DNA from: Klebsiella planticola ATCC 33531
GTDB taxonomy: Bacteria > Pseudomonadota > Gammaproteobacteria > Enterobacterales > Enterobacteriaceae
Direction: 5' to 3'
Length of the DNA: 64,000 nucleotides
Assembly (NCBI RefSeq): GCF_000735435.1
Contig: NZ_JMPP01000014.1
Span: 248,001-312,000 of the forward strand
Part shown: one piece after another, positions 20,288 to 47,141 of the stretch
Position numbering within the stretch: the first letter of the stretch is position 1
Layout of the letters: every line of letters starts with the position of its first letter
Position numbers and translations under genes: made by a program
Notes under the pieces: generated by a model
Databases searched by the model: none
What the model was told of the DNA's origin: nothing
Seen by the model: the letters and a program-made list of their open reading frames with translations, nothing else

Positions 20288-20866
20288 ATGAACCATTATG
20301 ATGATTTGCAGCGCTTCAAGGAAAAGACTCGTACGCAAAGTCTCGATTTTAAGGACCTTTCATCACACGCAGCCGCCAGGGAACAGGGCGATTGGGTTAT
20401 TCTCAATCAGCTCTCGCCTGGGGAAGAAAAAGAATCCTCTCTGGCCATGGGAGGATCGGTATCGTTACCGATACCGCAGCCGGTCCCTACGGATATGTTT
20501 CATTGGGTCGAGGCACAACCCGCGCACACGCCGCTGCCATCATCACCTGTAGCCCCGGCTCCGGTAATGCCGCCGCCTGTCTCCGTCTCAGCCCCACATG
20601 ACCCCCTTTCGGTTGCAGAAAATACGCGGGTAGCGGAACCTGCGCCGGCAATGGCCGTCCCCCTTGCGCCAGCTCCAGCCGTTGCGCCAGCCCCAGCTCC
20701 AGCCGTCGCGCCAGCACCACCGGTAGCGGTTCGCCCGGCCGTGCCGTCTGTGCAGGCGGCGGAAGGCTATGCTCATTTATTTGCGGCAAAAGCCGTTGAA
20801 CCGGTGGCGAAAAATAAAGATCAGCCGCTGAAATCACTTTTAGAAAGGATTGCGACATGCCGTTGA
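20288..20866 (+). CDS. bcsO: Proline-rich cellulose biosynthesis protein BcsO
   Basis: A 192-residue cytoplasmic protein heading the type I operon. The start MNHYDDLQRFKEK was chosen over an ATG 12 bases upstream because GAGG lies seven bases before it. Residues about 60-145 are proline- and alanine-rich with a short tandem repeat of Ala-Pro units. Two short conserved-looking segments follow: YAHLFAAK and the C-terminal LKSLLERIATC. The N-terminal quarter (DDLQRFKEKTRTQSLDFKDL) is predicted helical. BcsO proteins occur only in some enterobacterial cellulose operons and their role is poorly known; a scaffold or localisation role is inferred. It overlaps bcsQ by ten bases. Confidence 0.85.
   Translation: MNHYDDLQRFKEKTRTQSLDFKDLSSHAAAREQGDWVILNQLSPGEEKESSLAMGGSVSLPIPQPVPTDMFHWVEAQPAHTPLPSSPVAPAPVMPPPVSVSAPHDPLSVAENTRVAEPAPAMAVPLAPAPAVAPAPAPAVAPAPPVAVRPAVPSVQAAEGYAHLFAAKAVEPVAKNKDQPLKSLLERIATCR
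20664..20722 (+). repeat. Short tandem repeat inside bcsO encoding Ala-Pro units
   Basis: Units beginning TTGCGCCAGC and TCGCGCCAGC recur three times at 18-24-base steps and encode APAPAV-like peptides. Such in-frame repeats can change copy number between strains. Confidence 0.65.
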
Positions 20867-21660
20867 TCTGCGTGTGTTCTCCCAAAGGCGGCGTAGGAAA
20901 AACGACCCTCGCGGCAAATCTGGCCTATTCATTAGCTCGCGCAGGCAGCAAAGTCCTGGCGATCGATTTTGACGTGCAAAATGCGCTGCGTCTGCATTTT
21001 GGCGTCCCTCTGAGCGATGAGCGCGGCTATGTCGCGAAAGCGCTGGAGCTTCATGACTGGAGCCAGTGCGTACTGAGCGCGGGCAGCAATATTTTTGTCC
21101 TGCCGTATGGCGATGTTAGCGAGGCGCAGCATCAGGCTTTTGACCAACACCTTGTCAGCGACGCCCATTTCCTCACCCGTGGGCTGGCGGCATTATTGAA
21201 TTATCCCGGGTTGATTATCATCGCCGACCTGCCTCCCGGCCCTTCACCGGCGCTGACGGCATTAACGTCGCTGGCCGATCTGCACCTGGTGCCGCTGCTG
21301 GCGGATACCGCCTCGATGTCGACGCTGTCGCACGTGGAAAAGCAGCGTTTAACCGGCGGTAAGCTTAACCACAAACTTGGGCACTTTTTCGTGCTGAATC
21401 AGAGCGATAACCGCCGTCAGGTCAGCCGTGACGTCACTGCTCTGATGGAGGATAAACTGGGCGATCGTCTGTTGGGTATTATCCATCGCGATGAGAGCGT
21501 CGTTGAAGCGAATGCTTCCCAGAAGTCGATTCTCGACTTTAGCTCTTCCTCTGCAGCCGCCTTTGATATTGAAATCATGGCAAAAAAAATCTCTGCGCTG
21601 TTGGGTATTAAAATTGGCGACGGCACGGTGCACAGCCAGCCTCGTATGTCAGGGCTTTAA
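20857..21660 (+). CDS. bcsQ: BcsQ, ParA/MinD-type ATPase (type I operon copy)
   Basis: A 267-residue MinD/ParA-like ATPase. Residues 10-17 are a classical deviant Walker A, KGGVGKTT, with the signature lysine Lys10 and catalytic Lys15. The switch region is IIIADLPPGPSPA. BcsQ proteins position or stabilise the cellulose synthase complex, in E. coli at the cell pole together with BcsR. No bcsR is found in this operon; bcsO takes the upstream place. It differs clearly from the second BcsQ (36847-37584), whose Walker A lacks both lysines. Twenty bases separate it from bcsA. Confidence 0.9.
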   Translation: MPLICVCSPKGGVGKTTLAANLAYSLARAGSKVLAIDFDVQNALRLHFGVPLSDERGYVAKALELHDWSQCVLSAGSNIFVLPYGDVSEAQHQAFDQHLVSDAHFLTRGLAALLNYPGLIIIADLPPGPSPALTALTSLADLHLVPLLADTASMSTLSHVEKQRLTGGKLNHKLGHFFVLNQSDNRRQVSRDVTALMEDKLGDRLLGIIHRDESVVEANASQKSILDFSSSSAAAFDIEIMAKKISALLGIKIGDGTVHSQPRMSGL

Positions 21661-21679
21661 CTTATTGCAGGGCTGCTGA

Positions 21680-23791
21680 ATGAAAAAGTCTCTTTTCTGG
21701 TTGCTGGCACTGGTGCTATCGCCGATTGCCGTTCTGGTCATTATTACGCCGATGGACAGCCAAAAGCAGTACCTTTTTGGTCTGCTAAGCATCGGTATTC
21801 TGTTCTTAATGGGCTTTAGCAAAAAGCGCAGTATTTCGGTCATTATGGTCGTGACTTCGCTGCTGATGTCTACCCGCTATATGTATTTTCGCCTGACGCA
21901 GACCCTGCATTTTAACTCCACTATTGAGACGGTGCTGGGGATGGGGCTGTTTCTGGCGGAAGTCTATATCTGGGTGATGCTGCTGCTGAACTATCTGCAA
22001 ACGGTCTGGCCGCTGAAGCGAGAAATCGTCCCGCTGCCGGATGATATGAGCACATGGCCGACGGTCGATATTTATATTCCCAGCTATAACGAACCGCTGG
22101 AAGTGGTACGTGATACCGTGTTGGCTGCGCAGTGTATCGATTACCCGGCGGATAAAATGAAAATTTATCTGCTGGACGATGGCAAACGTAGCGAGTTTGC
22201 GGTGTTCGCCGCCGATGTCGGCGTTGGCTATATCACCCGTAATGATAATAAACACGCCAAGGCGGGTAACCTGAACCACGCGATGACCCTGACTCATGGG
22301 GAGCTGATTTGCGTTTTCGACTGTGACCACGTGGCGACCCGCGTGTTCCTGCAGGCGACGGTCGGCGGCTTCCTCAAAGACCCGATGCTGGCGCTGGTGC
22401 AGACCCCGCACTATTTTTATTCGCCGGACCCGTTTGAACGCAACCTCTCCGTCGGCCGCAATATCCCCAATGAAGGGATGCTGTTCTATGGCCCGATTCA
22501 GCAGGGCAACGATAACTGGAACGCGACCTTCTTCTGCGGTTCCTGCGCCGTGATTCGTCGTAAAGCGCTGGATGATATCGGTGGTTTTGCCGTAGAAACT
22601 GTGACCGAAGATGCGCACACCGCGCTTAAATTTCAGCGCCTGGGCTGGAAATCATCGTTTCTCGATATTCCACTGGCTGCGGGTTTAGCCACCGAACGTT
22701 TGGTCGTGCACGTCATTCAGCGTACCCGCTGGGCGCGTGGGATGACGCAAATTTTCCGCCTCGATAACCCGCTACTGGGCCGCGGGCTGACCTTCCAGCA
22801 GCGCCTGTGTTATCTCAGCGCCATGCTCTACTATCAGTTCGCCCTGCCACGGGTCGTGTTTGTCACCGCACCGTTAGCGTATCTGTTGTTTAACCTGAAT
22901 ATTATCTACTCCTCAGCGAGCCTGATTGTCTCGTATGCGCTACCGCATCTGTTCCTGGCGATTTATGTCGGCTCACGGATGAACGGTCGCTATCGCTACA
23001 GCTTCTGGGGGGAAATCTATGACATCGTGCTGGCATTCCACCTGGTGCTGCCGACGCTGGTGACGATGATCTTCCCCAAACGCGGTAAATTCAACGTGAC
23101 CGACAAAGGGGGGCTGCTGGATGTGGGCTACTTCGACTTTACCGTCGTCAGGCCGCATCTGGTGGTGGCATGTTTGCTCGCGGTTGGCGTGATTGTCGGT
23201 ATCGTCAGGGCCATTGGCCATGACTATTTCGGCTCGGATCCTAACGTTATCGCGCTGAACGTCGGCTGGGGGCTGTACAGCCTGATCTTCCTGCTGGCGG
23301 CGATTGCCGTTGCCCGGGAAACCCGCCAGGTGCGGAAAACGATCCGTATCGACGTCAATATTCCGGTGTTGATTCACTACGCCAGCGGCATCGTGTCGCG
23401 CAGCCACACCGCAGATCTGTCGATGGGCGGATGCCGCATCTCGGTCCCGGACGATCGTCATCTGCAGGATGAGATCGAAGAGATTGAACTGATTCTGCAA
23501 TCTGGCGCGATTTGTATTCCGGCTGAACAGGTGACCGCGGACGAGGACTTTATTCGCCTCAAGTTTGATGAAAATATTCCCCTCTCTTTGCGCCGTGAAC
23601 TGGTGCGAGTGGTGCTGGCGCGCGCCGATGCATGGATTAACCCGCCGCGCCCGCAGGACAACCCGTTCCGGTCATTTTTCACCATCTTACGCTGCGTGTT
23701 TGAACTGTTCTGGCTGAGCTGGAAAACACGACGCGGCCGTCGCCAGCAGAAACCTGTCGCGAGTAGCGCGCAGGAGGATGGGCAACTATGA
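21680..23791 (+). CDS. bcsA: Cellulose synthase catalytic subunit BcsA (type I copy)
   Basis: A 703-residue inner-membrane GT2 synthase that polymerises UDP-glucose to beta-1,4-glucan and extrudes it. The catalytic motifs are complete: DDG at 166-168, DCD at 214-216, FFCGSC near 284-289, TED at 309-311 and Q347-R-T-R-W351. The C-terminal PilZ domain has both c-di-GMP motifs, RKTIR (552-556) and DLSMGG (579-584), so activation by c-di-GMP is expected. It lacks the roughly 150-residue N-terminal extension of the E. coli-type BcsA found at 37581. It overlaps bcsB by four bases. Confidence 0.96.
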   Translation: MKKSLFWLLALVLSPIAVLVIITPMDSQKQYLFGLLSIGILFLMGFSKKRSISVIMVVTSLLMSTRYMYFRLTQTLHFNSTIETVLGMGLFLAEVYIWVMLLLNYLQTVWPLKREIVPLPDDMSTWPTVDIYIPSYNEPLEVVRDTVLAAQCIDYPADKMKIYLLDDGKRSEFAVFAADVGVGYITRNDNKHAKAGNLNHAMTLTHGELICVFDCDHVATRVFLQATVGGFLKDPMLALVQTPHYFYSPDPFERNLSVGRNIPNEGMLFYGPIQQGNDNWNATFFCGSCAVIRRKALDDIGGFAVETVTEDAHTALKFQRLGWKSSFLDIPLAAGLATERLVVHVIQRTRWARGMTQIFRLDNPLLGRGLTFQQRLCYLSAMLYYQFALPRVVFVTAPLAYLLFNLNIIYSSASLIVSYALPHLFLAIYVGSRMNGRYRYSFWGEIYDIVLAFHLVLPTLVTMIFPKRGKFNVTDKGGLLDVGYFDFTVVRPHLVVACLLAVGVIVGIVRAIGHDYFGSDPNVIALNVGWGLYSLIFLLAAIAVARETRQVRKTIRIDVNIPVLIHYASGIVSRSHTADLSMGGCRISVPDDRHLQDEIEEIELILQSGAICIPAEQVTADEDFIRLKFDENIPLSLRRELVRVVLARADAWINPPRPQDNPFRSFFTILRCVFELFWLSWKTRRGRRQQKPVASSAQEDGQL

Positions 23792-26271
23792 AGCGATTAA
23801 CCACGCTTGCGCTGCTGGCCGGCATGTTTTCCATACCGGTGCTGCACGGTGAAGAGGCGCCGGCCGATCGTTCTGCGCCGCTCAATTTCCCGTTACCGGG
23901 CGCGACCACGGGCGGCGTTCCCGCCGATGAATCCGCGTCGACCACCGGCGCGGATCCGTCGGCCACACCGGAGGTTCCGGTGATCCCAGAACCCTCTGCC
24001 GCGTCCGGGTCGTCGACCGCATCGACACCCACGACAGCAGAACCCGCGGCGGCGGATCCGGCCACCTCGCTTCCCGTCATGCCTCCACCGACCAATACGG
24101 CAATGCCGGATGTCGCGCCGTTAACAGCGGTGGTCGGGGGCAGTCTGAATCTGGCTCAGATGGGGATGCCGGATGGCATTATCCTCAGCGGCGGTCAACA
24201 GCAGGGCGGTGCGGGTTTTACGCTGCCTTCGGACCAGGTGGTGACCCATGCAGAGCTGATGCTGGATGTTCAGGTCTCGCCGGATATGGCCGCTCGCAAC
24301 GCCACGCTGCAATTGATGCTCAACGGCCAGCCTTTAGGCACGGTGCCGCTGGGCACCGACGGGGCGGACATTTCGCACTATCAGCTGGATATTCCGGCGG
24401 CGCTGATGGTCTCCAGCAACAATCTGAGCTTTAAAGTGAATGATGGCGACAACATGCAGTGCCAGCTCAATACGCATGACACGTCGGGCGTCACGATTTT
24501 ACCGGCTTCGCGTTTTAACTGGGAAAGCCAGCCGCTGAATCTCAGCAATGATTTGAGTCACTTCCCGCGGCCATTCTTCGACAGCATGCAGATGACCCCG
24601 GCGGATATCGCGGTGGCCTACCCGGAGAAATCGGGAGCGGATATCTTCAGCGCCGCAGCGCTGCTCTCGTCGTGGCTGGGTATTCAGGCGGATTATCGCG
24701 GGATTGCTTTTAGCGCGCTGCGCGACCGCTTACCGGAGCGCCACGGCATTATTATCGGCCATCCGGGTGACCAGGTCGGCGGGCTGACGCTGCCGCAAAC
24801 CGATAAACCGCTGCTGCAGATTGTCGATAACCCGGGTAACCCCACCTACAAACTGCTGTTGATCGTCGGGCAAAATGATGCGGCGCTGCGTGCGGCGGCC
24901 TGGCGGCTGACCCGCGGTAATATTGCCCCGCAGACCGCGAGTCTGAGCGTGGATCCGCAGGCGATCCCGATCGGCAAGCCGTATGATGCCCCGCGCTGGA
25001 TCCCAACCGATCGGCCGGTAAAAATCAGCGAGCTGCTGCGTAAAGATCAGAGTATGACCGTAAACGGCGTCTGGCATGAACCGCTGCGCGTAGCTTTCCG
25101 CGCGGCGCCGGATCTCTATCTGTGGGACGGGGAAACGATTCCCTTGCAGATTGGCTACCGTTTCCCGTCGGAAAACTGGATTAATGAGGAGCAGTCGTTA
25201 TTAAGCGTGACGCTCAATAACACATTCCTGCACAACCTGCCGCTAAACAAGCAGGGGCCGCTGGAGAAATTATGGCGTTATCTGGGCGGCGATGTGCGTC
25301 AGGAGCGGTTTACCATTCCGCTGGCGCCGTATCTGATTTACGGCGATAACCAGCTGTCGCTCTATTTCAACGTGGTGCCGAAACAAAACGCCCCCTGTTC
25401 GGTGGTGCTCAATAACAATATCAAGAGCCGGATTACCGATGATTCGTGGATTGATTTGAGCAATACGCGACACTTCTCGCTGCTGCCCAATCTCTCCTAT
25501 TTCGTCGGCGCTTCGTTCCCGTTCTCGCGGCTGGCGGACTATTCACAAACCACGCTGCTGCTGGCGGAAAAACCGTCGGAAACGCAGGTCGCCACGCTGT
25601 TAAACCTCGCGGCCCGCTCGGGGAATGCGACCGGTACGGCGCTGGCGAACAACCGGGTTGTTTTAGGCATCCCCAGCGGTGGAGCTGGCCTTCAGTATCT
25701 GCACGATCGCGATGTGCTGGCGGTCAGCGCCCTCGATCAGAAAACGTTTAACCAGCGCTTGTTGGAAGATTCTCCTTATTATCAGACGGATAATCAGCTG
25801 GGCGTGCGCGAGTCGGGACTGAGTTCAAAAGTACAGCGATGGCTGGCCGGCGACTGGACATCCGCCAGCCTGGATGCCGATCGCTATCTCTCCTCCAGCA
25901 GCGCCTGGCGCGGCTTTATTAGCTACCGTTCACCGTGGAACCCACGGCGGACGGTGGTGGTGGCGATGGCCAGCAACGATGATCAGCTGACGAAGCTGAA
26001 AAGCGACCTTGATTCACCGCGAATCAACGCCGGTATCCGCGGTGATACGGCGGTTATCACCAGTGATAATGGGGTTCGCAGCTTCCAGGTGAGCACGCCA
26101 TACCCTGGCGGGCAGATGCCGTGGTACATGATGGCCGTTTGGTATGCCAACCAGCACTCCGGTCTGCTGGCGCTGCTGGGACTGCTGGCGACAACGATCA
26201 TCGGCCTGGCGCTTACCGCCATGTTTAAACGCCATGCACGCAAGCGTCTGAGTTCGGGGGATAGCCAATGA
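23788..26271 (+). CDS. bcsB: Cellulose synthase periplasmic subunit BcsB (type I copy)
   Basis: An 827-residue periplasmic partner of BcsA. A signal peptide (MKRLTTLALLAGMFSIPVLHG) is followed by a Ser/Thr/Pro/Ala-rich linker to about residue 110. Then come the alternating carbohydrate-binding and flavodoxin-like domains. One C-terminal membrane helix (LALLGLLATTIIGLALTAMF) anchors BcsB beside BcsA. The start lies in the bcsA stop and the end overlaps bcsC by four bases, so translation is coupled. The long low-complexity linker is more extended than in the second BcsB of this window. Confidence 0.95.
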   Translation: MKRLTTLALLAGMFSIPVLHGEEAPADRSAPLNFPLPGATTGGVPADESASTTGADPSATPEVPVIPEPSAASGSSTASTPTTAEPAAADPATSLPVMPPPTNTAMPDVAPLTAVVGGSLNLAQMGMPDGIILSGGQQQGGAGFTLPSDQVVTHAELMLDVQVSPDMAARNATLQLMLNGQPLGTVPLGTDGADISHYQLDIPAALMVSSNNLSFKVNDGDNMQCQLNTHDTSGVTILPASRFNWESQPLNLSNDLSHFPRPFFDSMQMTPADIAVAYPEKSGADIFSAAALLSSWLGIQADYRGIAFSALRDRLPERHGIIIGHPGDQVGGLTLPQTDKPLLQIVDNPGNPTYKLLLIVGQNDAALRAAAWRLTRGNIAPQTASLSVDPQAIPIGKPYDAPRWIPTDRPVKISELLRKDQSMTVNGVWHEPLRVAFRAAPDLYLWDGETIPLQIGYRFPSENWINEEQSLLSVTLNNTFLHNLPLNKQGPLEKLWRYLGGDVRQERFTIPLAPYLIYGDNQLSLYFNVVPKQNAPCSVVLNNNIKSRITDDSWIDLSNTRHFSLLPNLSYFVGASFPFSRLADYSQTTLLLAEKPSETQVATLLNLAARSGNATGTALANNRVVLGIPSGGAGLQYLHDRDVLAVSALDQKTFNQRLLEDSPYYQTDNQLGVRESGLSSKVQRWLAGDWTSASLDADRYLSSSSAWRGFISYRSPWNPRRTVVVAMASNDDQLTKLKSDLDSPRINAGIRGDTAVITSDNGVRSFQVSTPYPGGQMPWYMMAVWYANQHSGLLALLGLLATTIIGLALTAMFKRHARKRLSSGDSQ

Positions 26272-29200
26272 AACGAGCCACTAAAATGAAGAGCAGGGCG
26301 ACCCGCGGATTATCCACGTTTTGTCTGTCCGGCGCGCTGACCCTGGGCGCCCTCGGCGATGCCATGGCCGCGGGGAATGATGCCGCGCTGCAGGCGCTGT
26401 TTGCCCAGGCGAACTACTGGCATGAAAAATCGCACGATGAGCTGGCGATAGAGTCGCTGCAGAAAGTTCTGCTGGTTGATGCCAACAACACGCAGGCCAT
26501 GTATCTGATGGCGCTGTGGGCACAGCAGGGCGGCGACCTTCAGGCGGCGGCCCAGTGGCGGGCGCGCCTGGCGAAAGTGTCGCCAGAGAGCCCAAACCTG
26601 CAGGAGCTGGATAACGCTAAAAAAATGGCTCAGGTGCCGCAGGGGCAGCTGGGTCTGGCCAGACAGCAGGCGCGCAGCGGCAATATTCCGGCTGCGCTGA
26701 CGACCTGGCGCAGCATGTTCAACGGCAACACGCCGCCGCCGGGGCTGGCTGGCGAGTACTACATGACCATGGCCAGCGACAAAGCGCTGTATCCTCAGGC
26801 GGTCAGCGAACTGCGTCAGTACGTGGCGCAGTATCCGCAGGAGAACGCCCCACGCGTGGCTTTAGGCAAGGCGCTGACCTGGCGGGAAGATACCCGGCGG
26901 GAAGGGATCTCAATGCTGGAATCGATGGCCAGCGGCAGTAAAGATGCCGACAGCGGCCTGCGCCAGGCGCTGCTGTGGCTGGGGCCGCAAGAGGGCGATC
27001 GGGCGTTTTACGATACCTGGATGCAGCGCCACCCGCAGGATACCGAAGTACAGAATTACTATCGCCAGCGGATAAGCGGCCAGGCGCGTGGTCAGGGGTT
27101 CGTTAACCTCAATAGCGGTAATACCGCAGCGGCGAAGCAGCAGTTTGAACAAGTGCTGCAAACCAATCCGCAGGATGCGGACGCGCTGGCCGGGATGGGA
27201 TATATCGCCCAGCGCAACGGTGACTTCCAGGCCGCATCGCAATATTTAAGCCGGGCGGCGGATCTCGGCGGTAATGATTCAGCGGCGCGCCGTCAGCAGG
27301 CGGCGGACGCGCTCTTCTATGGGCAGCTGGCGCAGGCTCAGCAGGCGTACAAGCAAGGCAATATTAGTCAGGCGCTGGCGCTCTCTGCTCCGCTGGCTCA
27401 GCAGAGCGGGACGCGTGGCTCATCGGCTAAACTGTTCCGTGCCGATGTATTGCGCCATAACAAAGATCTCCCTCAGGCCGAACAAACGCTGCGCTCGCTG
27501 CTCAGCGAGCAGCCGCAAAATGGCCCGGCGCGCGAGAACCTTTACTACATCCTGCGCGAGCAAAATAAAACGGCGGAAGCGCAGGCGATGTTACGCACGC
27601 TGCCGGAGAGTTTGCAGCAAAAGCTGCAGCCGCGCATCGTGACCGGTATGCCGGGAGATTCGCTACGTCGCCAGGCGCAGGAGCAGGTCAACAGCGGCAA
27701 CGTCAGCGGCGCTATCGCGACATTGCGCCAGGGGGTCTCCCGCTACCCGGATGACGCCTGGATGCGCCTCGACTTAGCCCGGCTCCTGCAAAAATCCGGC
27801 AATGACAGCGAGGCCGCGTCAACGATGGCCGCCGCGTATCGTCCCGGTGCCAGCAGTAACGACCTCTATGCCGCAGCGCTGTTTGCCAGTGAGAGCGGCG
27901 GCTGGCAGCAGGCACAGACGCTGCTGGGGCGGATTCCCGCCGCCAGCCAGACCAGCCAGATGCGCGACCTGCGTCAGCGGGTAAACTACAACCTGCAGCT
28001 GACCACCGCGCAAGACTATCTCGCCCAGGGCAACATGGTGGCGGCGTCCAATACCCTGAAAGCGATGTCGGCCACGCCGCCAAAATCACCGGCTGACGTG
28101 GGGAAACTGGCGCGATTGCTGGCGCAGAGCGGCGATGTTTCCACGGCGGTCACGCTGGTGCGCAACAATATCAGCGGCGGAATCACCGGGAACGCCGGCG
28201 ACTATGCCGATCAGGTGGCGGTCCTCAACCAGGCGGGGCTGACCAATGAAGCGCAGACTCTGCTGTCGAACCCGCAGCTTCAGGCAAGCAGTACGCCAAC
28301 GCAGCTGGCGAGCATCCGCAACGGCTACGTGATCAACGAAGCCGATCGACTGCGGGAGCAGGGCAACTATGCCGCGGCGTATGACAAGCTGATGGGGGCG
28401 ATGCAAAGCGATCCGCAAAATACCGATCTGATGTTCGCGATGGCGCGTCTCTATCAAAGCGGCAAAATGAACAAAGAAGCCGGGGTGGTCTATGACTATC
28501 TGATGACCCGCGATACGCCGGATCAGGCGGCGCGCTCCGGCGCTATCGATGTTGCGCTGTCGGCCGGCGATAACGACCGGGCGGAACAGCTGGCCGGCGG
28601 ATTGCGTCAGGACAATACGCCGGATCGCCTGCTGCTGCTGGCGCGCGTCGCGGAAGCGCAGGGACACCATCAGCAGGCTATGACGTATCTGCGCAGCGCG
28701 CGCGGCAAACTGCTGGGGCTGCAGAGCAGCAACAGCGCGCAAACGCCGACCGTTGGCGGTGTGCTGGCGGCGGATAACCCCTTTGTGGGCGTCTCCCGCA
28801 CGCCGTCCACGACGCGAACGGCATCGGCTTACGGGCAATATATGCCGTGGCAGGTTGCCCAGGTGTCAACAGGCAGCGGAACCACGCTGCCCGGCATCCA
28901 ACGTCCCGACCTGCCGGTGGAGACCGCGCAAACCCGCATGCTGCGCCAGGTTGATACCATGATGGAGTCGCTGCAGGATAAAACCGGCACCTCGCTGCAG
29001 GGGGGGATGGAGGTGCGTGGGCGCGACGGTGAATCCGGGACCAGTAAGCTGACCGAGATGAAAACGCCGCTGACCTGGTCCTCATCGCCGTTTGGCGACT
29101 CGCGTTTTGACTTTACCGTGACGCCGATTTCGCTGAATGCCGGCACCGCCAGCGGCGACGCCTGGCGGCGCTACGGCGCGAACCCGCTCTCCAATGCGGT

Positions 29201-30320: not shown

Positions 30321-30322
30321 TC

Positions 30323-30796
30323 ATGACGGACAAAAACAACGCGGAAGTCATGGCCTGGTTTCAACAGCAGCAAACCCCCGCGGGATGGTTTGATCTGCTG
30401 CTCATTATGATTGACGGGATGCTGAACAACGCCGGTGAGCTGGAGAGCCAGCCATTTTTACGCCAGATGGGGGAAGCGCTGGCCGATAACTATCCGCTGC
30501 CAGAGTCAGAAACAGTCGGACAGCTGGAGGCCAATATCAACCAGCTGCTCAGCCGCTTTCAGTGGGGCGTCGTCAGCGTGGAGGTGGGCGATGACGGCCT
30601 GCGCTTACGTCATCGCGCGCTGCCGGTGAGCCGTGACGATGCGCGCCGCGTACGCTGGTGCAATGCATTTTGTGCCATACTCGAGGGGCTTTATTCTCGC
30701 TGGCTACAGGGACAAGGGGGCGGTGCGCATGTGGTGTTACAGCGTGAGCGGCTGTTCTCGGTTTCCGATGTTCAGTTCCTCTACTTCCATCCATAA
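30323..30796 (+). CDS. bcsD: Cellulose synthase subunit BcsD
   Basis: A 157-residue periplasmic-ring type protein, nearly the same length as Komagataeibacter BcsD (156). BcsD marks type I operons and helps bundle nascent glucan chains into ordered, crystalline ribbons. There is no signal peptide, as in known BcsD; its compartment is debated, with a cytoplasmic scaffold function reported in Komagataeibacter. It starts two bases after bcsC and 11 bases before bcsZ. Recognised from operon position, length and segments such as WFDLLLIMIDGMLNNAGE and RVRWCNAFCAILEGLYSRW. Confidence 0.9.
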   Translation: MTDKNNAEVMAWFQQQQTPAGWFDLLLIMIDGMLNNAGELESQPFLRQMGEALADNYPLPESETVGQLEANINQLLSRFQWGVVSVEVGDDGLRLRHRALPVSRDDARRVRWCNAFCAILEGLYSRWLQGQGGGAHVVLQRERLFSVSDVQFLYFHP

Positions 30797-30807
30797 CGGG
30801 TGAACAT

Positions 30808-31800: not shown

Positions 31801-31806
31801 TGTTAG

Positions 31807-36477: not shown

Positions 36478-36634
36478 GTCGTTCCTCGTCAGCCCTGATT
36501 CATACTGGATCAGTTTACTAGCGAAAGCGTCAGAGTAAACCTAACATTGAATTTAAAGGGTATCAGTTTTAGCATATATAGGTGACTTGAGATTGAGCCT
36601 ATTATACATCGGGTTTTATTTATGTGTTTTTTGA

Positions 36635-36835: not shown

Positions 36836-36846
36836 GGACGCCGTCG

Positions 36847-37584
36847 ATGGCTATTCTTGGATTACAGGGTATCCGCGGTGGCGTGGGCACCACGTCGATT
36901 ACCGCCGCGCTCGCCTGGGCGTTACAGCTCCTCGGGGAGACGGTTCTGGCGATCGACGCCAGCCCGGATAATATGCTGCGCTATTTTTTCAACGTTGATG
37001 CGACGCATCGCGACGGTTGGGCACGCGCGTTAATTGACGGAGGCGACTGGCGTGACGCCGGCATCCGTTATACCTCGCATATCGATATTTTGCCTTTTGG
37101 TCTGCTCTCGCCCGGTGAAAGAGAGAACGTTGATAAGCTCTATCCGCTGCTGGAATCGTTTGTCGGCATGGTGGAGAAACTGGAACAGCAGGGCGATCAT
37201 CGCTGGCTGCTGCTGGATTTACCGGAAGGTTATTCCCCGCTGACTCGTTCGCTGCTTAGCGCCTGCGATCGCACGCTGGTGGTGGTGCATCCGGATGGCA
37301 ACAGCCATATTCGCCTGCATCAACAGGCGCTGCCGGCGAAGGGCGATATTCTGATTAACGATCTGCGCGTCGGCAGCCAGCTACAGGAAGATTTGTATCA
37401 GCTGTGGCTGGAGAGCCAGCGCCGTATTTTGCCGGTCACCGTCCATCGTGATGAGGCGATGGCGGAGTGTCTGGCGGCGAAGCAGCCGCTCGGGGAATAT
37501 CGTTCTGATTCGCTGGCCGCCGAAGAGATCCTGACCCTCGCTAACTGGTGCTTGCTGCACTATTCCGGCAAGGGGACGCAATGA
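36847..37584 (+). CDS. bcsQ: BcsQ, MinD-like protein (type II operon copy)
   Basis: A 245-residue BcsQ aligned with E. coli BcsQ. Codon 6 is a leucine codon (TTA); E. coli K-12 has a stop there that silences cellulose, so this copy is intact. The Walker A at residues 10-17 reads RGGVGTTS. The usual signature Lys10 and catalytic Lys15 are Arg and Thr, as in other type II BcsQ. The stop overlaps the bcsA start (ATGA), giving coupled translation. Confidence 0.94.
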   Translation: MAILGLQGIRGGVGTTSITAALAWALQLLGETVLAIDASPDNMLRYFFNVDATHRDGWARALIDGGDWRDAGIRYTSHIDILPFGLLSPGERENVDKLYPLLESFVGMVEKLEQQGDHRWLLLDLPEGYSPLTRSLLSACDRTLVVVHPDGNSHIRLHQQALPAKGDILINDLRVGSQLQEDLYQLWLESQRRILPVTVHRDEAMAECLAAKQPLGEYRSDSLAAEEILTLANWCLLHYSGKGTQ

Positions 37585-40199
37585 TGCGCCTCAGTACTTT
37601 GCTCCTGGCGCCTGCGGTTGCGGAACGCCTGAGCGAACGCTACAGCGATTATCGCCAGCACGGCGCATCGTGGCTGTCCGCCTCGCTGGGCTGCCTGTGG
37701 GCGTCGCTGGTCTGGGCGCTGATGCCGCTGGAAACACCGCGCTGGCAGGCGATTCTGAACAACCATCGTGACTACTTTCCGCATATTAATCCCCATCGCC
37801 CGCGGCTGCTGGATCCGCTGCGCTATCTGCTGCAGTCCCTGTGGCTGCTGGTGACGCATGTACCCGGGGCGGATAAAAAGGCGAACTGGCGTTCGTTTGC
37901 CGCCATCAAAGGGGTTCACGGGCGCTACACCCAGTGGCTGGAGACGCTTCCCGAGCGGACGAACAGCCGTACTGCCCATCTGAATAAACACAAAGAGCTG
38001 GCGCATGTCAGCCCGAAACTGCGCAAGGCGATTCTTGGCGTGGTGGTCACTTTCTCGCTGGTGCTGTCGCTGCTGTGTATTACTCAGCCGTTTAACCCGC
38101 TTTCGCAGTTTATTTTCCTGATGTTGCTGTGGGGCGTGGCGCTGCTGGTGCGCCGTATTCCCGGGCGTTTTTCGGCCCTGATGCTGATTGTCCTCTCGCT
38201 GACCGTCTCCTGCCGCTACATCTGGTGGCGCTATACCTCGACGCTGAACTGGGACGATCCCGTCAGCCTGGTGTGCGGCATTGTGCTGCTGTTTGCTGAA
38301 ACCTATGCCTGGCTGGTGTTGGTGCTGGGCTATTTCCAGGTGATATGGCCATTGAATCGCCAGCCGGTTCCGTTACCCAAAGATATGGCCGAGTGGCCGA
38401 CGGTGGATATTTTCGTTCCCACCTACAATGAAGACCTTAACGTGGTGAAAAACACCATTTATGCGTCGCAAGGTATCGACTGGCCGAAAGATAAGCTCAA
38501 TATCTGGATCCTCGATGACGGCGGGCGCGAAGAGTTTCGCCAGTTCGCCAAAGACGTCGGCGTGCATTACATCGCCCGCGCCACTCACGAGCACGCTAAA
38601 GCCGGGAATATCAACAACGCGCTTAAGTACGCCAAAGGCGAATTTGTGTCGATCTTCGACTGCGACCACGTGCCGACACGCTCTTTCCTGCAGATGACCA
38701 TGGGGTGGTTCCTGAAAGAGAAAGCGCTGGCGATGATGCAGACGCCGCACCATTTCTTCTCGCCCGACCCGTTTGAACGCAATCTGGGACGTTTCAGGAA
38801 AACGCCAAACGAGGGGACCCTGTTTTATGGCCTGGTGCAGGATGGCAACGATATGTGGGACGCCACCTTCTTCTGCGGCTCCTGCGCGGTGATTCGGCGC
38901 GGCCCGCTGGATGAGATTGGCGGTATTGCTGTGGAAACGGTGACCGAGGATGCCCACACCTCCCTGCGTCTGCACCGTCGCGGCTACACGTCCGCCTATA
39001 TGCGCATTCCGCAGGCCGCCGGCCTGGCGACCGAAAGCCTTTCAGCGCATATTGGCCAGCGTATTCGCTGGGCGCGTGGCATGGTGCAGATTTTCCGCCT
39101 CGATAACCCTTTGTTTGGTAAAGGGCTTAAGTTTGCGCAGCGGCTCTGTTACGTCAATGCGATGATGCACTTTTTATCCGGCATTCCCCGGCTGATCTTC
39201 CTCGTCGCGCCGTTGGCATTTTTACTGCTGCACGCCTATATCATCTATGCGCCGGCGCTGATGATCGCGCTCTTCGTCTTGCCGCATATGATTCATGCGA
39301 GCCTGACGAACTCGAAGATTCAGGGCAAATATCGCCACTCTTTCTGGAGCGAAATCTACGAAACCACGCTGGCCTGGTATATCGCGCCGCCGACCTTTGT
39401 CGCGCTGATTAACCCGCATAAAGGTAAGTTCAACGTGACGGCGAAAGGAGGACTGGTGGAGGACGAATATGTCGACTGGGTCATTTCCCGTCCCTATATC
39501 TATCTGGTGCTGCTGAACCTGGTGGGCGTGGCGGCTGGGGTCTGGCGTCACTTCTATGGCCCGGAAAATGAGATCCTGACCGTTTGGGTCAGTATCGTCT
39601 GGGTGTTCTATAACCTGATTATCCTTGGCGGCGCGGTGGCGGTCTCGGTGGAAAGTAAACAGGTCCGTCGCTCGCATCGCGTCGAAATGAGCATGCCGGC
39701 GGCAATTGCGCGCGAAGATGGCCACCTGTTCTCCTGTACCGTACATGACTATTCCGATGGCGGGCTGGGGATCAAAATTAACGGTAAGGCGCAGGTGCTG
39801 GAAGGGCAAAAGGTGAATCTGCTGCTCAAACGCGGACAGCAGGAATATGCCTTCCCGGTCAGGGTTGCGCGCGTGAACGGCAGCGAAGTCGGTTTGCAGC
39901 TGATGCCGTTGACCAATCAACAACATATTGATTTTGTACAGTGTACGTTTGCCCGTGCTGATACGTGGGCGCTTTGGCAGGATAGCTTCCCGGAAGATAA
40001 ACCGATGGAAAGCCTGCTGGATATCCTGAAGCTGGGGTTCCGTGGATATCGTCACCTGGCGGAGTTCTCGCCGCCGTCGGTGAAGGTTATTTTCCGCTCG
40101 CTCACCATGCTGGTTGCCTGGATAGTCTCGTTTGTTCCCCGTCGGCCTGAGCGTGCCGCGGCGATACTCTCTGCGGAACCAGAAATGGCTCAACAATGA
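37581..40199 (+). CDS. bcsA: Cellulose synthase catalytic subunit BcsA (type II copy)
   Basis: An 872-residue synthase, identical in length to E. coli BcsA. The start at 37581 overlaps the bcsQ stop and has AAGGGG upstream; an upstream frame opening at 37548 lies inside bcsQ and was rejected. It has the N-terminal cytoplasmic extension, the GT2 motifs DDGG, DCDH, FFCGSC, TED and QRIRW, and a C-terminal PilZ domain with RRSHR and DYSDGG for c-di-GMP. It works with BcsB at 40210 and is supported by BcsR, Q, E, F and G. Confidence 0.97.
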   Translation: MMRLSTLLLAPAVAERLSERYSDYRQHGASWLSASLGCLWASLVWALMPLETPRWQAILNNHRDYFPHINPHRPRLLDPLRYLLQSLWLLVTHVPGADKKANWRSFAAIKGVHGRYTQWLETLPERTNSRTAHLNKHKELAHVSPKLRKAILGVVVTFSLVLSLLCITQPFNPLSQFIFLMLLWGVALLVRRIPGRFSALMLIVLSLTVSCRYIWWRYTSTLNWDDPVSLVCGIVLLFAETYAWLVLVLGYFQVIWPLNRQPVPLPKDMAEWPTVDIFVPTYNEDLNVVKNTIYASQGIDWPKDKLNIWILDDGGREEFRQFAKDVGVHYIARATHEHAKAGNINNALKYAKGEFVSIFDCDHVPTRSFLQMTMGWFLKEKALAMMQTPHHFFSPDPFERNLGRFRKTPNEGTLFYGLVQDGNDMWDATFFCGSCAVIRRGPLDEIGGIAVETVTEDAHTSLRLHRRGYTSAYMRIPQAAGLATESLSAHIGQRIRWARGMVQIFRLDNPLFGKGLKFAQRLCYVNAMMHFLSGIPRLIFLVAPLAFLLLHAYIIYAPALMIALFVLPHMIHASLTNSKIQGKYRHSFWSEIYETTLAWYIAPPTFVALINPHKGKFNVTAKGGLVEDEYVDWVISRPYIYLVLLNLVGVAAGVWRHFYGPENEILTVWVSIVWVFYNLIILGGAVAVSVESKQVRRSHRVEMSMPAAIAREDGHLFSCTVHDYSDGGLGIKINGKAQVLEGQKVNLLLKRGQQEYAFPVRVARVNGSEVGLQLMPLTNQQHIDFVQCTFARADTWALWQDSFPEDKPMESLLDILKLGFRGYRHLAEFSPPSVKVIFRSLTMLVAWIVSFVPRRPERAAAILSAEPEMAQQ

Positions 40200-40209
40200 T
40201 GATAATGCG

Positions 40210-42567
40210 ATGAAAAGAAAACTCTCCTTGATTTGTGCAGTGGCAGTGGGCATGGCTGGTTGGTCATCCTTCGCCTCTTTTGCGGCGCCGACGACAGTCG
40301 TGGCGGCAGCGCCAGCGCCTGCGGCGACGGATCCGCTGGACGGTGGCCTGACGGCCCCGGTCATTGCCGACAGCCAGCCGACGGCAACCCTTGCCGCACC
40401 GCCAGCGCCGGCGGTCGTCATGGAGAATGTTCCGACCCGCGACGTGAAGCTCTCTTTCGCCAGTATCGCCCCGCCTCCGGGCAGCATGGTACTGCGCGGG
40501 GCGCATCCCGACGGCTCGGTAGAATTTGGTATGCGCAGCGATGAGGTCGTGACGAAAGCCCTGCTGAATCTCGACTATACGCCGTCCCCTTCACTGCTGC
40601 CGGTGCAGTCGCAGCTGAAGGTGTACCTCAATGATGAGCTGATGGGCGTCCTGCCGGTTACTAAAGAGCAGCTGGGTAAAAAAGTCAGCGCGCAGATCCC
40701 TATCGATCCTCTGTATATCACCGACTTTAACCGCGTGCGTCTGGTGTTCGTCGGCCATTATCGCGATGTGTGCGAGAACCCGGCCAGCAGTACGTTATGG
40801 CTGGACGTCGGGCGTGACAGCAACCTGGACCTGACCTATCAGGCGCTGGCGGTGCGTAACGATCTGTCCCATTTCCCGGTGCCGTTCTACGACCCCCGGG
40901 ACAACCGATCGCTGACGCTGCCGATGGTTTTCGCCTCCTCGCCGGATGCGCAGCAGCAGCAGGCGGCGGCGATTGTGGCCTCCTGGTTCGGCAGTAAAGC
41001 CGGCTGGCGCGGCCAGGCGTTCCCGGTACTGTTTAACAAACTGCCGGATCGCAACGCCATCGTGTTTGCGACCAACGATAAGCGCCCGGACTTCCTGCGC
41101 GAACATCCGCCGGTGAAGGCGCCGACCATCGAAATGATCGACCATCCGGACAACCCTTACGTCAAGCTGCTGGTGGTCTTTGGCCGTGATGACAAAGATC
41201 TGCTGCTGGCCGCCAGGGGGATCGCACAGGGCAATATTCTGTTCCGCGGCAGTAGCGTCGTGGTCGACGACGTCAAAGAGCTGCAGGCGCGTAAACCCTA
41301 TGATGCGCCGAACTGGGTGCGAACCGATCGTGAAGTCACCTTCGGCGAACTGAAAACCTACGAACAGCAGCTGCAGTCCAGCGGCCTGGTGCCAGATTCC
41401 ATTAACGTGGCGCTGAATTTGCCGCCGGATCTCTATTTGCTGCGCGCCAACGGCATCGATATGAAGCTGAACTATCGCTACACCATGCCGCCGATCAAAG
41501 ACAGTTCGCGGATGGATATCAGCCTCAATGACCAGTTCCTGCAATCCTTCAGCCTGAACAGCTCTCAGGACGTGAATAAATTAATATTGCGTCTGCCGGT
41601 GTTGCAGGGGCTGCTGGACGGTAAGACCAACGTCAGTATCCCGGCGCTGCGCCTCGGGGCGCTCAACCATCTGCGTTTTGATTTCCAGTACATGAACCCG
41701 ATGCCGGGCGGCTCTATTGATAACTGTATTACCTTTCAGCCGGTGCAGAACCACGTGGTGATCGGTGACGATTCAACGATCGACTTCTCGAAGTATTACC
41801 ACTTTATTGCCATGCCGGATCTGCGCGTGTTTGCCAATTCGGGCTTCCCGTATAGCCGGATGGCCGACCTTGCTGACACGCTGATTGTGGTGCCATCCGC
41901 CCCGACTGAGGGCCAGGTGGCGACGCTACTGGAATCCGTTGGCGGTATCGGCGCGCAGACTGGCCTGGCGGCTATCAATGTGCAGGTCACCGATGATGGC
42001 AACAAAATTAAGGATAAAGACGCCGACCTGCTGTTGATTGGCTCGATTCCGGCAGCGCTGAAAGATGAGACCAAAATTAGCCTGCTGGTCGATGCGACAA
42101 AGAGCTGGGTGAAGATGCCGATGCGCCATTACGATCTGCCGAGCATCTATCCGGATGATGAGGCCAGAACGCCCAATACGCGCACGGATATCACCTCCTC
42201 CGGGCCAATGGCGGCCATTATCAGCTTCCAGTCGCCGTATTACGATCAACGCAGCGTCGTGGCGCTGCTGGCGGACAGTCCGCGCGGTAACGAGCTGCTG
42301 AACGGTGCGCTAAACGACAGCGGTAAGCGGGCGGCGATGTTTGGTTCCGCGTCGGTGATTCGTGAATCCGGGGTGAACAGCCTGCGCGTGGGCGACGTCT
42401 ATTATGTCGGACACCTGCCGTGGTTTGAGCGTATCTGGTTTGCGCTGTCCAGCCACCCGGTGCTGCTGGCGATTCTGGCTGCGGTGAGCATTGTGCTTCT
42501 GGCCTGGGTGCTGTGGCGCATGCTGCGTATTGTCAGCCGTCGTCGTCTCCACCTTGATGATGAGTAA
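40210..42567 (+). CDS. bcsB: Cellulose synthase periplasmic subunit BcsB (type II copy)
   Basis: A 785-residue protein; E. coli BcsB has 779. The start MKRKLSLICAVAVGMAG opens the signal peptide. An upstream in-frame ATG at 40132 lies inside bcsA and was rejected. An Ala/Pro-rich linker spans about 25-75, followed by repeated carbohydrate-binding and flavodoxin-like domains. A C-terminal anchor helix (HPVLLAILAAVSIVLLAWVLW) is followed by basic residues. Ten bases follow bcsA and three precede bcsZ. Confidence 0.96.
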   Translation: MKRKLSLICAVAVGMAGWSSFASFAAPTTVVAAAPAPAATDPLDGGLTAPVIADSQPTATLAAPPAPAVVMENVPTRDVKLSFASIAPPPGSMVLRGAHPDGSVEFGMRSDEVVTKALLNLDYTPSPSLLPVQSQLKVYLNDELMGVLPVTKEQLGKKVSAQIPIDPLYITDFNRVRLVFVGHYRDVCENPASSTLWLDVGRDSNLDLTYQALAVRNDLSHFPVPFYDPRDNRSLTLPMVFASSPDAQQQQAAAIVASWFGSKAGWRGQAFPVLFNKLPDRNAIVFATNDKRPDFLREHPPVKAPTIEMIDHPDNPYVKLLVVFGRDDKDLLLAARGIAQGNILFRGSSVVVDDVKELQARKPYDAPNWVRTDREVTFGELKTYEQQLQSSGLVPDSINVALNLPPDLYLLRANGIDMKLNYRYTMPPIKDSSRMDISLNDQFLQSFSLNSSQDVNKLILRLPVLQGLLDGKTNVSIPALRLGALNHLRFDFQYMNPMPGGSIDNCITFQPVQNHVVIGDDSTIDFSKYYHFIAMPDLRVFANSGFPYSRMADLADTLIVVPSAPTEGQVATLLESVGGIGAQTGLAAINVQVTDDGNKIKDKDADLLLIGSIPAALKDETKISLLVDATKSWVKMPMRHYDLPSIYPDDEARTPNTRTDITSSGPMAAIISFQSPYYDQRSVVALLADSPRGNELLNGALNDSGKRAAMFGSASVIRESGVNSLRVGDVYYVGHLPWFERIWFALSSHPVLLAILAAVSIVLLAWVLWRMLRIVSRRRLHLDDE

Positions 42568-42570
42568 GCG

Positions 42571-43680
42571 ATGATGAACCCGATTCGCGGAGTCATCCTG
42601 GCGGTTCTGATGCTGGCGGCGGCGCAGGTGAGCGCCGCCTGCCAGTGGCCGGCCTGGGAGCAATTTAAAAAAGAGTATGTGAGTAGCGAAGGGCGGGTGG
42701 TTGATCCCGCCGATTCGCGAAAAATCACCACCTCCGAAGGACAAAGCTACGCCTTGTTCTTCGCGCTGGCGGCAAACGATCGCGACGCTTTCGGCAAGCT
42801 GTTCCAGTGGACCCAGAACAACCTGGCGGCGGGCGACCTGCGTGCGCACCTGCCGGGCTGGCTGTGGGGCAAAAAGAGCGATGAGGAGTGGACGCTGCTG
42901 GACAGCAACTCCGCGTCTGACTCCGATTTATGGATAGCCTGGTCGTTGCTGGAAGCGGGGCGGCTGTGGCAGATGCCGCAGTACACCGAGGTGGGCAAGG
43001 CGCTCTTGTCGCGTATCGCCGATGAAGAAGTGACGGATGTGCCGGGGTTCGGACCCATGGTTCTCCCCGGCAAAGTTGGCTTTGCCGACGATAAAGGCTG
43101 GCGCTTTAACCCCAGCTACCTTCCGCCACAGCTTGCCAGCTACTTCAGCCGCTTTGGCGCCCCCTGGCTGAAACTGCGCGACAGCAACCTGCGTTTTCTG
43201 CTGGAGACGGCGCCCAAAGGTTTTTCCCCTGACTGGGTGCGTTACGAAAAAGGACAAGGCTGGCAGCTGAAGGCGGACAAACCGATAATCGGCAGCTACG
43301 ACGCGATCCGCGTCTATCTGTGGGTCGGGATGCTGGATGACGGGGATAAACAGAAAGCGCGACTGCTGGCTGGTTTTAAACCGATGGAAGCGCAGACGAT
43401 TCGCCAGGGCGTTCCGCCGGAAAAAGCGAATATCGCAACCGGTAAAACGACCGGCAACGGCCCGGTCGGATTTTCCGCGTCGATGCTGCCGTTTTTACAA
43501 AATGACGACGCCCGGGCGATACAGCGCCAGCGCGTCGCAGACCACTATCCAGGTGCCGATGCCTACTATAGTGCGGTCCTGACTCTTTTTGGCCAGGGAT
43601 GGGATCAACATCGTTTTCGTTTCACTGCGGGTGGCGAATTACGACCTGACTGGGACCAGGAATGCGTAAGTTCAGATTAA
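42571..43680 (+). CDS. bcsZ: Periplasmic endo-1,4-beta-glucanase BcsZ (type II copy)
   Basis: A 369-residue GH8 endoglucanase with a signal peptide ending QVSA before [10 protein letters not shown]. The catalytic acid is Glu56 (TSEGQSY) and the base Asp244 (SYDAIRVYL), one residue offset from E. coli Glu55 and Asp243. The start is the first of two tandem ATGs; the second would match E. coli exactly. In this operon bcsZ precedes bcsC, whereas in the type I operon bcsZ is last. It overlaps bcsC by 19 bases. Confidence 0.96.
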
Positions 43681-46600
43681 GTATTATCACGCTGTCTCTC
43701 GGGCTCGCCCTGCTGCCGGTGGCGCAGGCGGCGACAACCCCTGCCCAGGAGCATCTGCTGGAGCAGGTTCGGCTGGGCGAAGCGAGCCATCGTGAAGATC
43801 TGGTTAAGCAATCCCTCTATCGCCTCGAGCTGATTGACCCGAATAATCCGCAATTAATTGCCGCGCGAATGCGTTATCTGCTGCGCCAGGGCGACAGCGA
43901 CGGCGCCAGAAAACAGCTCGACAGGCTGGCAAAACTGGCCCCCGATTCCGCAGAGCTGAAATCCTCCCGTAGCGAAATGAACCTCAACACCGGCGACGGG
44001 AGGCAGGAGCTTCAACAGGCGCGCCTGCTGGGTGTATCGGGACGTGTAGAAGAGGGCGTGGCCGCCTTTGAAAAATTGTTCGGCGGCGTGCCGCCCGATC
44101 AGACCCTCGCGATTGAATACTGGGCGCTGGTGGCGCGTCTCCCGGCGCGACATAAAGAAGCCGTCGCTCAACTGAAGAAGCTGGATGCCAGCTCTCCGGG
44201 CAATGCCGACCTGCAGGCGGCGTTGGCCAAACAGATGTTTGCTGACAATAAGCCGGCGGAAGGGTTTGCCTATTTAGAACAAATGTCGCGTTCGGCCGCC
44301 GGTCGCGGCGCTGCCGCCGATATGTGGCTCAGCGAAATCAAAGATATGCCGGTCAGCCGGGCCAGCGTGCAGGAACTGCAGCGTTTCCTGGCCCTGTTTA
44401 CAACCGGTGAATCGGCAGCGAATGCCCGCGTGTTGCTGGCTCAGCAGCAGACTCAACTGCAGGATCCGACGTTTCGCGTGCGTTCTGAAGGGCTGGCGGC
44501 GGTTAAAAATGACAACCCCGCCCAGGCCGTGGCCAATTTACAGCAGGCCGTACGGGCCGATGCCCGGGACAGCGATGCCGTGGGCGCCCTGGGCCAGGCC
44601 TATTCGCAGCGTGGCGACAGAGCCCGTGCCGTCGCACAGCTGAACAAAGCGATCGCGATGGATCCGAAAAGCCCGAATCGCGATAAATGGGACAGCCTGC
44701 TCCAGACGAACCGCTACTGGTTGTTGATCAAACAGGGCGATACCGCGCTGAAGGCCGGAGAGCTGGATCGGGCGCAAAACTATTATGCGCAGGCTCAGCG
44801 AGTCGACGGTACCGATAGCTATGCGGTGCTCGGGCTCGGAGATGTGGCGGCAGCGCGCAAAGATAATGCCGCAGCGGAGCGCTATTATCAGCGCACCCTG
44901 CGGATGGATCGCGGCAACAACCTGGCGGTTCGCGGGTTGGCTAATCTTTATCGTGCGCAATCGCCGGAAAAAGCCAGCGCCTATATCGCCGGTCTGTCGC
45001 CTGCCCAGCGGCGCAGCATTGATGATATCGAGCGCAGCCTGACCAATGAACGACTGGAAAAACAGGCCGCAGCGCTGGAGAGCCAAAGCAACTGGGCGCA
45101 GGCGGCGGAAGTCCAGCGTCGGCGTCTGGCGCTTGACCCGGATAGCGTGTGGATTACCTACCGTTTATCCCGCGATTTAGTCAGCGCAGGCGAACAGGCA
45201 CAGGCCGATACGCTGATGCGTAATATGGTCAGCCGCAAGCCGGGGGATGCCGAGCGGGTTTATGCCTGGGGTCTCTATTTATCCGGCAATAATCAGGACG
45301 ATCTGGCGCTGGCGCAGCTTGCTGCCCTGCCGCGCAGTCAGTGGACGGATAACATTCGTGAGCTGGATGCGCGCCTACAGAGCGATAAGGTGATACGTCA
45401 GGCTAACCAGCTGCGTGACAGCGGCCACGAAGCACAGGCTATCGCCCTCATTCAACAGCAGCCGCCGTTGGTTCGCTACCAGCTTACGCTTGCGGACTGG
45501 GCGCAGCAACGCGGCGATAGCCAGACGGCGATTGCGCAGTACAACGCGGTGCTGAGTAAAGAGGCTGACAACGGTGATGCCCGTCTGGGACTGGCGGAAG
45601 TCTATCTTGCCGAAGGCGATAAAAATGCCGCGCGCGCGCAGGTCAGCCAGCTGAAAGGCGGTGAGACCGACTCCATCAATATGCAGCGGCGGGTGGCCCT
45701 GGCGAACGCAGGGTTTGGCGATACAACCCAGGCGCAGCAAATTTTTAACCGTATTATCCCGCAGGCTAAAGCGCAGCCACCGTCGATGGAAAGCGCGCTG
45801 GTGCTGCGCGATGCGGCCCGATTCCAGACCCAGAACGGCCAGCCGCAGATGGCGCTGGAGAGTTATAAAGATGCAATGGTGGCCTCCGGCGTGACCCCGG
45901 TCCGCCCGCAGGATAACGATGCCTTTACCCGTCTGACCCGGAACAACAGCAGCGATGACTGGCTGAAGCGTGGGATCCGCAGCGATGCCGCGGATCTCTA
46001 TCGCCAGCAGGATCTGAATGTCACCCTGGAACATGATTTCTGGGGATCCAGCGGCACCGGCGGCTATTCCGATCTCAAAGCGCACACCACGATGCTGCAT
46101 GTGGATGCGCCGCTTGCCGACGGACGCATGTTCTTCCGCACCGACCTGGTCAATATGGATGCCGGCAGCTTCTCAACGAACAGCGACGGCAGCTATTCGC
46201 CAAACTGGGGGACCTGCGGTGAAATTGCCTGCACCAGCGGTAGCAAAAACCAGACCGACGGTGGAGCCAGCGTTGCGGTGGGCTGGAAGAACGAGACCTG
46301 GAGCGCGGATATCGGTACCACCCCGATGGGCTTTAACGTGGTTGATGTGGTGGGCGGCCTGAGCTACAGCAACGATCTCGGACCGATCGGCTACACCCTC
46401 AATATGCATCGTCGGCCGGTTTCCAGCTCGCTGCTCGCCTTTGGCGGACAGAAAGACAGCAGCAGCCATACCGGGATAACCTGGGGCGGCGTCCGGGCTG
46501 ACGGCGGCGGCGTGAGCATGAGCTACGATAAGGGCGAAGCCAACGGCGTCTGGTCTTCGTTGGGCGTCGATCGACTCACGGGGAAAAACGTGGCCGACAA

Positions 46601-47141
46601 CTGGCGCGTGCGCTGGATGACCGGTTACTACTATAAAGTCATCAATGAAGATAACCGCCGCGTCACGGTGGGCCTGAACAATATGCTCTGGCATTATGAC
46701 AAAGACCTGAGCGGCTATACCCTGGGCCAGGGCGGCTACTATAGCCCGCAGGAGTATATTTCGTTCGCGGTACCGGTCACCTGGCGTCAGCGTACGGAAA
46801 ACTGGTCATGGGAACTGGGGGGATCCGTCTCCTGGTCGCACTCGCGTACCAAAACCATGCCGCGCTATCCGTTGCTGAATTTGATTCCCTCGGACTATCG
46901 GGCCGATGCCAGTCAGTTGACGGAACAAGGCAGCAGCAGCCAGGGCTTTGGTTATACCGCCCGGGCGCTGGTTGAGCGACGTGTCACCGGCAACTGGTTC
47001 GTGGGGGCGGCGGTGGATATTCAACAGGCGAAGGATTATACCCCGAGCCATGCGCTGCTCTACGTGCGCTATTCGGCCGCCGGCTGGCAGGGTGATATGG
47101 ATATGCCGCCGCAGCCGCTGGTGCCTTACGCGGACTGGTAG
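43662..47141 (+). CDS. bcsC: Cellulose export outer-membrane protein BcsC (type II copy)
   Basis: An 1159-residue protein (E. coli 1157) with a signal peptide ([12 protein letters not shown]). About 20 TPR units form the periplasmic scaffold up to near residue 780. The C-terminal barrel has the conserved segment [16 protein letters not shown]. It is the last gene of the bcsRQABZC operon and is followed by about 260 bases before yhjK. Confidence 0.96.

Follow-up and report, generated by a model that had tools for sequence, protein, structure and literature searches.

The window we analyzed, a 64,000-nucleotide stretch of the Klebsiella planticola ATCC 33531 genome (contig NZ_JMPP01000014.1, positions 248,001 to 312,000), contains two apparently intact bacterial cellulose synthesis (bcs) gene sets side by side; this is a real, ordinary feature and, judged by their sequences, the sets are bacterial cellulose secretion systems that separated long ago. 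A type I operon, bcsO-Q-A-B-C-D-Z, occupies positions 20276–31800 of the window on the + strand and adjoins a type II locus at 33060–47141, which consists of bcsEFG on the − strand (bcsGFE, 33060–36477) and bcsRQABZC on the + strand (36647–47141). The names type I and type II follow PMC5407803, PMC11470070 and general usage. A preliminary description had placed the pair at 20288–47141, and both loci are present there, although the first gene of the type I operon begins at 20276 rather than 20288. We consider it probable that the two loci encode two separate machines gated by cyclic di-GMP (c-di-GMP), each most likely with its own subunits, one producing BcsD-ordered plain cellulose and the other phosphoethanolamine-modified cellulose.

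The type I operon has bcsD beside bcsABC, with neither bcsE nor bcsG within it. Its genes overlap or are separated by no more than 19 bases, and are as follows.

20276–20866, + strand: bcsO, proline-rich accessory protein of 196 aa; weak match to PF17037 (32.2 bits, cut-off 27) over residues 5–74 only
20857–21660, + strand: bcsQ-I, ParA/MinD-like ATPase of 267 aa; TIGR03371, 189.5 bits (cut-off 157.85); Walker A KGGVGKTT
21680–23791, + strand: bcsA-I, cellulose synthase of 703 aa; TIGR03030, 850.9 bits (cut-off 699.1); PilZ at 550–646
23788–26271, + strand: bcsB-I, 827 aa; NF008324, 1306.6 bits (cut-off 972); PF03170
26268–30320, + strand: bcsC-I, 1350 aa, TPR and outer-membrane export; PF05420, 357.3 bits, plus TPR families
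30323–30796, + strand: bcsD, 157 aa; PF03500, 67.8 bits (cut-off 23)
30808–31800, + strand: bcsZ-I, GH8 endoglucanase of 330 aa, AfmE1 type; PF01270, 321.1 bits

A phmmer search matched BcsD to the solved BcsD of Enterobacter sp. 638 (8pog, E 3.5e-69) and BcsZ-I to 5czl (E 3.6e-203). BcsZ-I scored below the NCBIfam cut-off for the enterobacterial equivalent (155.1 versus 299 bits). Similarly, BcsC-I fell short of the NF008520 cut-off (378.6 versus 858 bits), whereas the type II copy passes the same model.

The type II locus has genes for BcsE and BcsG, accessory genes for BcsR, BcsQ and BcsF, and a BcsA with an N-terminal region.

33060–34730, − strand: bcsG, phosphoethanolamine transferase of 556 aa; TIGR03368, 772.8 bits (cut-off 410.2)
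34727–34924, − strand: bcsF, 65 aa; TIGR03493, 111.7 bits (cut-off 56)
34921–36477, − strand: bcsE, c-di-GMP sensor of 518 aa; TIGR03369, 404.1 bits (cut-off 244.65)
36647–36835, + strand: bcsR, 62 aa, full-length; NF040717, 77.1 bits (cut-off 46); PF10945
36847–37584, + strand: bcsQ-II, 245 aa; NF007460, 438.3 bits (cut-off 399); Walker A GGVGTTS
about 37581–40199, + strand: bcsA-II, cellulose synthase with N-terminal region and PilZ; NF008558, 1705.8 bits (cut-off 992)
about 40210–42567, + strand: bcsB-II; NF008325, 1336.2 bits (cut-off 922)
42571–43680, + strand: bcsZ-II, GH8 endoglucanase of 369 aa; NF008305, 547 bits (cut-off 299); phmmer match to 9b87_A
43662–47141, + strand: bcsC-II, 1159 aa; NF008520, 1984 bits (cut-off 858)

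The BcsA-II match covers NF008558 model positions 1–872, with model position 1 at residue 12 of the longest frame; for BcsB-II, position 1 of NF008325 falls at residue 27 of the longest frame. BcsE scored slightly under a second model, NF011619 (873 bits versus a cut-off of 929). In phmmer searches, BcsG matched the solved chain 9b8v_B across residues 6–556 (E 3.1e-298), and BcsE matched 9fnn_E across residues 4–514. The locus shares BcsE, F, G, R, Q, A, B, Z and C with the type II Bcs system of E. coli, whose solved BcsG and BcsE chains are thus matched nearly end to end. To our knowledge, E. coli has no neighboring type I operon.

All 16 bcs genes gave family matches. We looked for a broken gene among the 16 frames and rejected that possibility, since every frame is open and free of internal stops. 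Both BcsA proteins carry the motifs DDG, FFCGS, TED and QxxRW, together with the PilZ motifs RxxxR and DxSxxG, all read in their generally understood meaning; the DCD motif of BcsA-I aligns with the DCD of solved BcsA. The PilZ motifs are RKTIR at 552 and DLSMGG at 579 in BcsA-I, and RRSHR at 707 and DYSDGG at 734 in the longest BcsA-II frame, with a PF07238 match in each protein, as had been claimed in the preliminary description. Its claims that the Walker A forms and the gene orders differ also hold: KGGVGKTT in BcsQ-I corresponds to GGVGTTS in BcsQ-II, and bcsZ follows bcsD in the type I operon but precedes bcsC in the type II locus.

The two loci have diverged extensively. Over the best aligned stretch, the type I and type II copies are 29.0% identical for BcsQ, 45.9% for BcsA, 28.0% for BcsB and 29.3% for BcsZ; the BcsC copies are 31.6% identical in the C-terminal part and 23.5% identical over the N-terminal part. 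Significant DNA similarity between the loci is limited to 831 bp at 66.9% and 131 bp at 67.9%, both within bcsA-I. We built a midpoint-rooted tree of 55 BcsA sequences, comprising 37 BcsA-I (the window, 16 genomes of the genus, and 20 of the 80 best-matching type I loci described below, with the split BcsA-I of genome G019 left aside) and 18 BcsA-II (the window and 17 genomes, all of one genus). BcsA-I and BcsA-II fell on opposite sides of one branch with a support of 100/100. As a criterion for gene conversion, we required the window's BcsA pair to be closer than both some BcsA-I orthologue and every foreign BcsA-II; none of 70 alignment windows of 30 columns each satisfied it, and hence no gene conversion was seen in BcsA. 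Recent duplication or conversion was rejected for BcsA on the basis of these separate groups and the conversion scan, and is unlikely for the remaining pairs because bcsA alone has significant DNA similarity between the loci. The proposal that the loci are two distinct type I and type II operons, not a recent duplication, is therefore borne out: each named gene is there with an open frame, the BcsA proteins form separate groups, the five paralogue pairs are only 28–46% identical in their best stretches with little similarity in DNA, and gene conversion, which had been named as a possible refutation, found no support in BcsA.

In a sample of 20 genomes of the genus, window included, BcsD was found in 18 and BcsG in 19, and the 17 genomes with both always had them on the same contig, their matches starting no more than about 5 kb apart. 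BcsA of both kinds exceeded the cut-off in 16 of the 20, including one split case, G019. Two of the 20 genomes had no match to BcsA-I or BcsD, two had no BcsA-II over the cut-off, and one had no BcsG. The two genomes lacking BcsA-II over the cut-off are G013, which retains BcsG, and G014, which does not; type II components have thus been lost separately in the genus. In G019, BcsA-I is in two pieces (G019:C1:4759456-4761479), one with an in-frame stop, and the BcsG match is also in two pieces. In a family sample of 119 genomes, drawn at nearly one per genus, BcsG was present in 43, BcsD over the cut-off in 34, and both in 21 (one of them, G067, marginally). BcsD and BcsG lie at most 12 kb apart in 10 of these 21; of the other 11, nine give no measure of distance because the two are on different contigs, and in two they are widely separated on a single contig. 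The association between BcsD and BcsG in the family sample has an odds ratio of 4.6 (p 0.0006, uncorrected for relatedness). The E. coli control gave no BcsD match in either the genus or the family search.

From relatives, we infer the assemblies and products of the two machines, and their lack of sharing. In the type I machine (subtype Ib), a BcsA with a PilZ gate would polymerize glucose, and the synthases would be organized on an intracellular BcsD scaffold to yield plain, better-ordered cellulose; BcsD is described as marking type I systems and as forming proposed intracellular scaffolds, with BcsE and BcsG marking type II (PMC11470070). BcsO, with a proline content of 15.8%, is a likely BcsD partner, because BcsH and BcsP are proline-rich BcsD partners in other systems (PMC11470070). 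The type II machine (subtype IIa) would work like the E. coli complex, in which the N-terminal domain of BcsA recruits three BcsG, and BcsF, E, R and Q form a regulatory assembly (PMC11470070). Hence, BcsE, F, R and Q would assemble on BcsA into a c-di-GMP-sensing unit, and the N-terminal region of BcsA-II would hold BcsG, which would add phosphoethanolamine. BcsA-I residue 9 aligns with residue 169 of the longest BcsA-II frame, and residue 14 with chain residue 159 of solved BcsA, with no earlier alignment in either case, indicating that BcsA-I lacks an N-terminal region of about 155–160 residues. As this is the region that recruits BcsG in E. coli, phosphoethanolamine should be expected on the type II product only. 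Both machines would be gated by c-di-GMP; a single pool may serve them, as the preliminary description proposed.

Several points weigh against this reading. The tree and the conversion test cover BcsA only, and the role of BcsO is suggested by its proline content and by analogy with BcsH and BcsP. Moreover, Enterobacter sp. 638 and FY-07 have two operons in the same arrangement in both strains, bcsI and bcsII (PMC4766428), which resemble those of the window in that both include bcsQ and are accompanied by bcsGFE; in FY-07, cellulose output is unaffected by removal of bcsI, bcsII or bcsGFE, and bcsI and bcsII are transcribed very weakly (PMC4766428). These data make activity under laboratory conditions doubtful, but FY-07 has a third operon, bcsIII, that is the source of its cellulose (PMC4766428; bcsIII is also treated in PMC13141831), whereas in the window's genome just two BcsA exceed the cut-off. 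We regard it as possible, without favoring it, that a single operon is in regular use, with the other quiet or being lost and still intact through rare need or because the loss is recent. The FY-07 data give this partial support from a relative, and the gaps in the genus sample described above and the splitting of BcsA-I, and apparently of BcsG, over two frames in G019 are consistent with it. By contrast, all frames are open in the window, the motifs are kept in both BcsA proteins, and the 16 of 20 genus genomes that keep both BcsA kinds include a single split case.

It has been suggested that co-occurrence of both operon clades in one genome reflects horizontal transfer (PMC7112194). The patchy presence of BcsD over the cut-off in the family sample fits a type I operon that was acquired horizontally, and fairly recently, next to a native type II operon. 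However, the genomic site argues otherwise, and we consider such an acquisition unlikely. Upstream, the loci are flanked by dpp genes (dppB, 15856–16875; dppF, 18778–19791), and downstream by an hmsP-like GGDEF/EAL gene (47402–49459) followed by dctA (49593–50903). We compared the type I operon with the best 80 of at least 559 relatives. The six core type I genes were present in the same order in all 80, and the closest BcsA-I among them, 99% identical, was that of Raoultella ornithinolytica NBRC 105727, with the window's own record possibly not in the set. Of the 76 loci with at least 5 kb of flank, 61 have dppF no more than 7 kb upstream; at least 28 of the 65 loci whose flank exceeds 2 kb have bcsG downstream, a lower bound because there is little downstream DNA per locus. 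The dpp-flanked site recurs in Enterobacteriaceae and Erwiniaceae, and we therefore lean towards an old site for the type I operon, kept by descent with losses. Consistent with this, BcsA-I distances agree with DppF distances across 61 loci (Mantel r 0.852, reached by 0 of 999 permutations); since DppF is a linked neighbor, joint transfer of dppF and the operon may also account for it. At 58.9%, the G+C content of the type I operon is close to the values for the dpp genes (58.1%) and the type II locus (57.9%). One locus, L041, from a record titled Serratia marcescens, has a BcsA-I that groups with Kosakonia and no dppF in the available flank; it is either a mislabelled record or a transferred operon.

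Sharing of subunits between the loci, for instance a common BcsC or BcsZ for the two synthases or a BcsG active on both glucans, with one mixed matrix polymer as the outcome, is quite improbable. In its favor, the loci lie next to each other, each synthase has a PilZ domain, and each locus carries bcsZ and bcsC genes whose products share family domains with their counterparts. Against it, each locus has a full core set, and the BcsB, BcsC, BcsQ and BcsZ pairs are only about 28–32% identical in their best stretches. Sharing of BcsG is made less likely by the lack in BcsA-I of the N-terminal region that E. coli BcsG binds. It is most improbable of all that both synthases are active together and that the type II BcsG or BcsE/R/Q serves the type I synthase through contacts outside the missing N-terminal region, with a composite of BcsD-ordered and phosphoethanolamine-bearing cellulose made by one cell under one c-di-GMP signal.

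The preliminary description had implied that the pair is new, which it is not: a subtype Ib and IIa pair has been published for the same species group, with the suggestion, made in 2017, that the operons of R. ornithinolytica S12 form different Bcs complexes and structurally different cellulose (PMC5407803). In S12, AfmE1 (5CZL) is encoded in the subtype Ib operon, and another BcsZ in a separate, nearby subtype IIa operon; we found no difference in kind from the window, with no base-by-base comparison made. Klebsiella pneumoniae and Enterobacter spp. have likewise been reported to carry the pair, as clades A1 (bcsABZC) and B1 (bcsABCZ) (PMC7112194), both gene orders occurring in one genome as in the window. 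That study covers bcsA, B, Z and C only and favors horizontal transfer, whereas flanks of the window's type suggest an old, mostly inherited site. The 12 of 21 passages of PMC4646962 that we consulted contain no description of a two-operon pair. Should both machines function, a single cell could turn one precursor into two kinds of cellulose, and Raoultella would be a convenient host in which to compare BcsD-ordered with phosphoethanolamine-modified cellulose in the same background. This two-cellulose question was posed in PMC5407803, and the window adds one further genome with both loci intact.

A scan of the region for promoters and terminators gave no indication of how the bcs operons are regulated. 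Promoter-like sites were at chance level (12 found, versus 9.2 in shuffles, sd 3.2). Terminator-like sites exceeded shuffles (35 versus 19.4, sd 5.9), most being short intragenic stems; a 14-pair hairpin after dppF, at 19800–19835, may mark the end of dpp transcription. The hmsP-like GGDEF/EAL protein encoded directly 3′ of bcsC-II on the + strand (NF008807, 759.8 bits, cut-off 733) is a candidate local c-di-GMP phosphodiesterase. A type I methionine aminopeptidase gene (31863–32642, − strand; TIGR00500, 305.2 bits, cut-off 171.35) separates the type I operon from the type II locus. A close copy is present in just three of the best 80 type I loci (L012, L013 and L049), and it therefore looks like an insertion on the Raoultella side of the genus.

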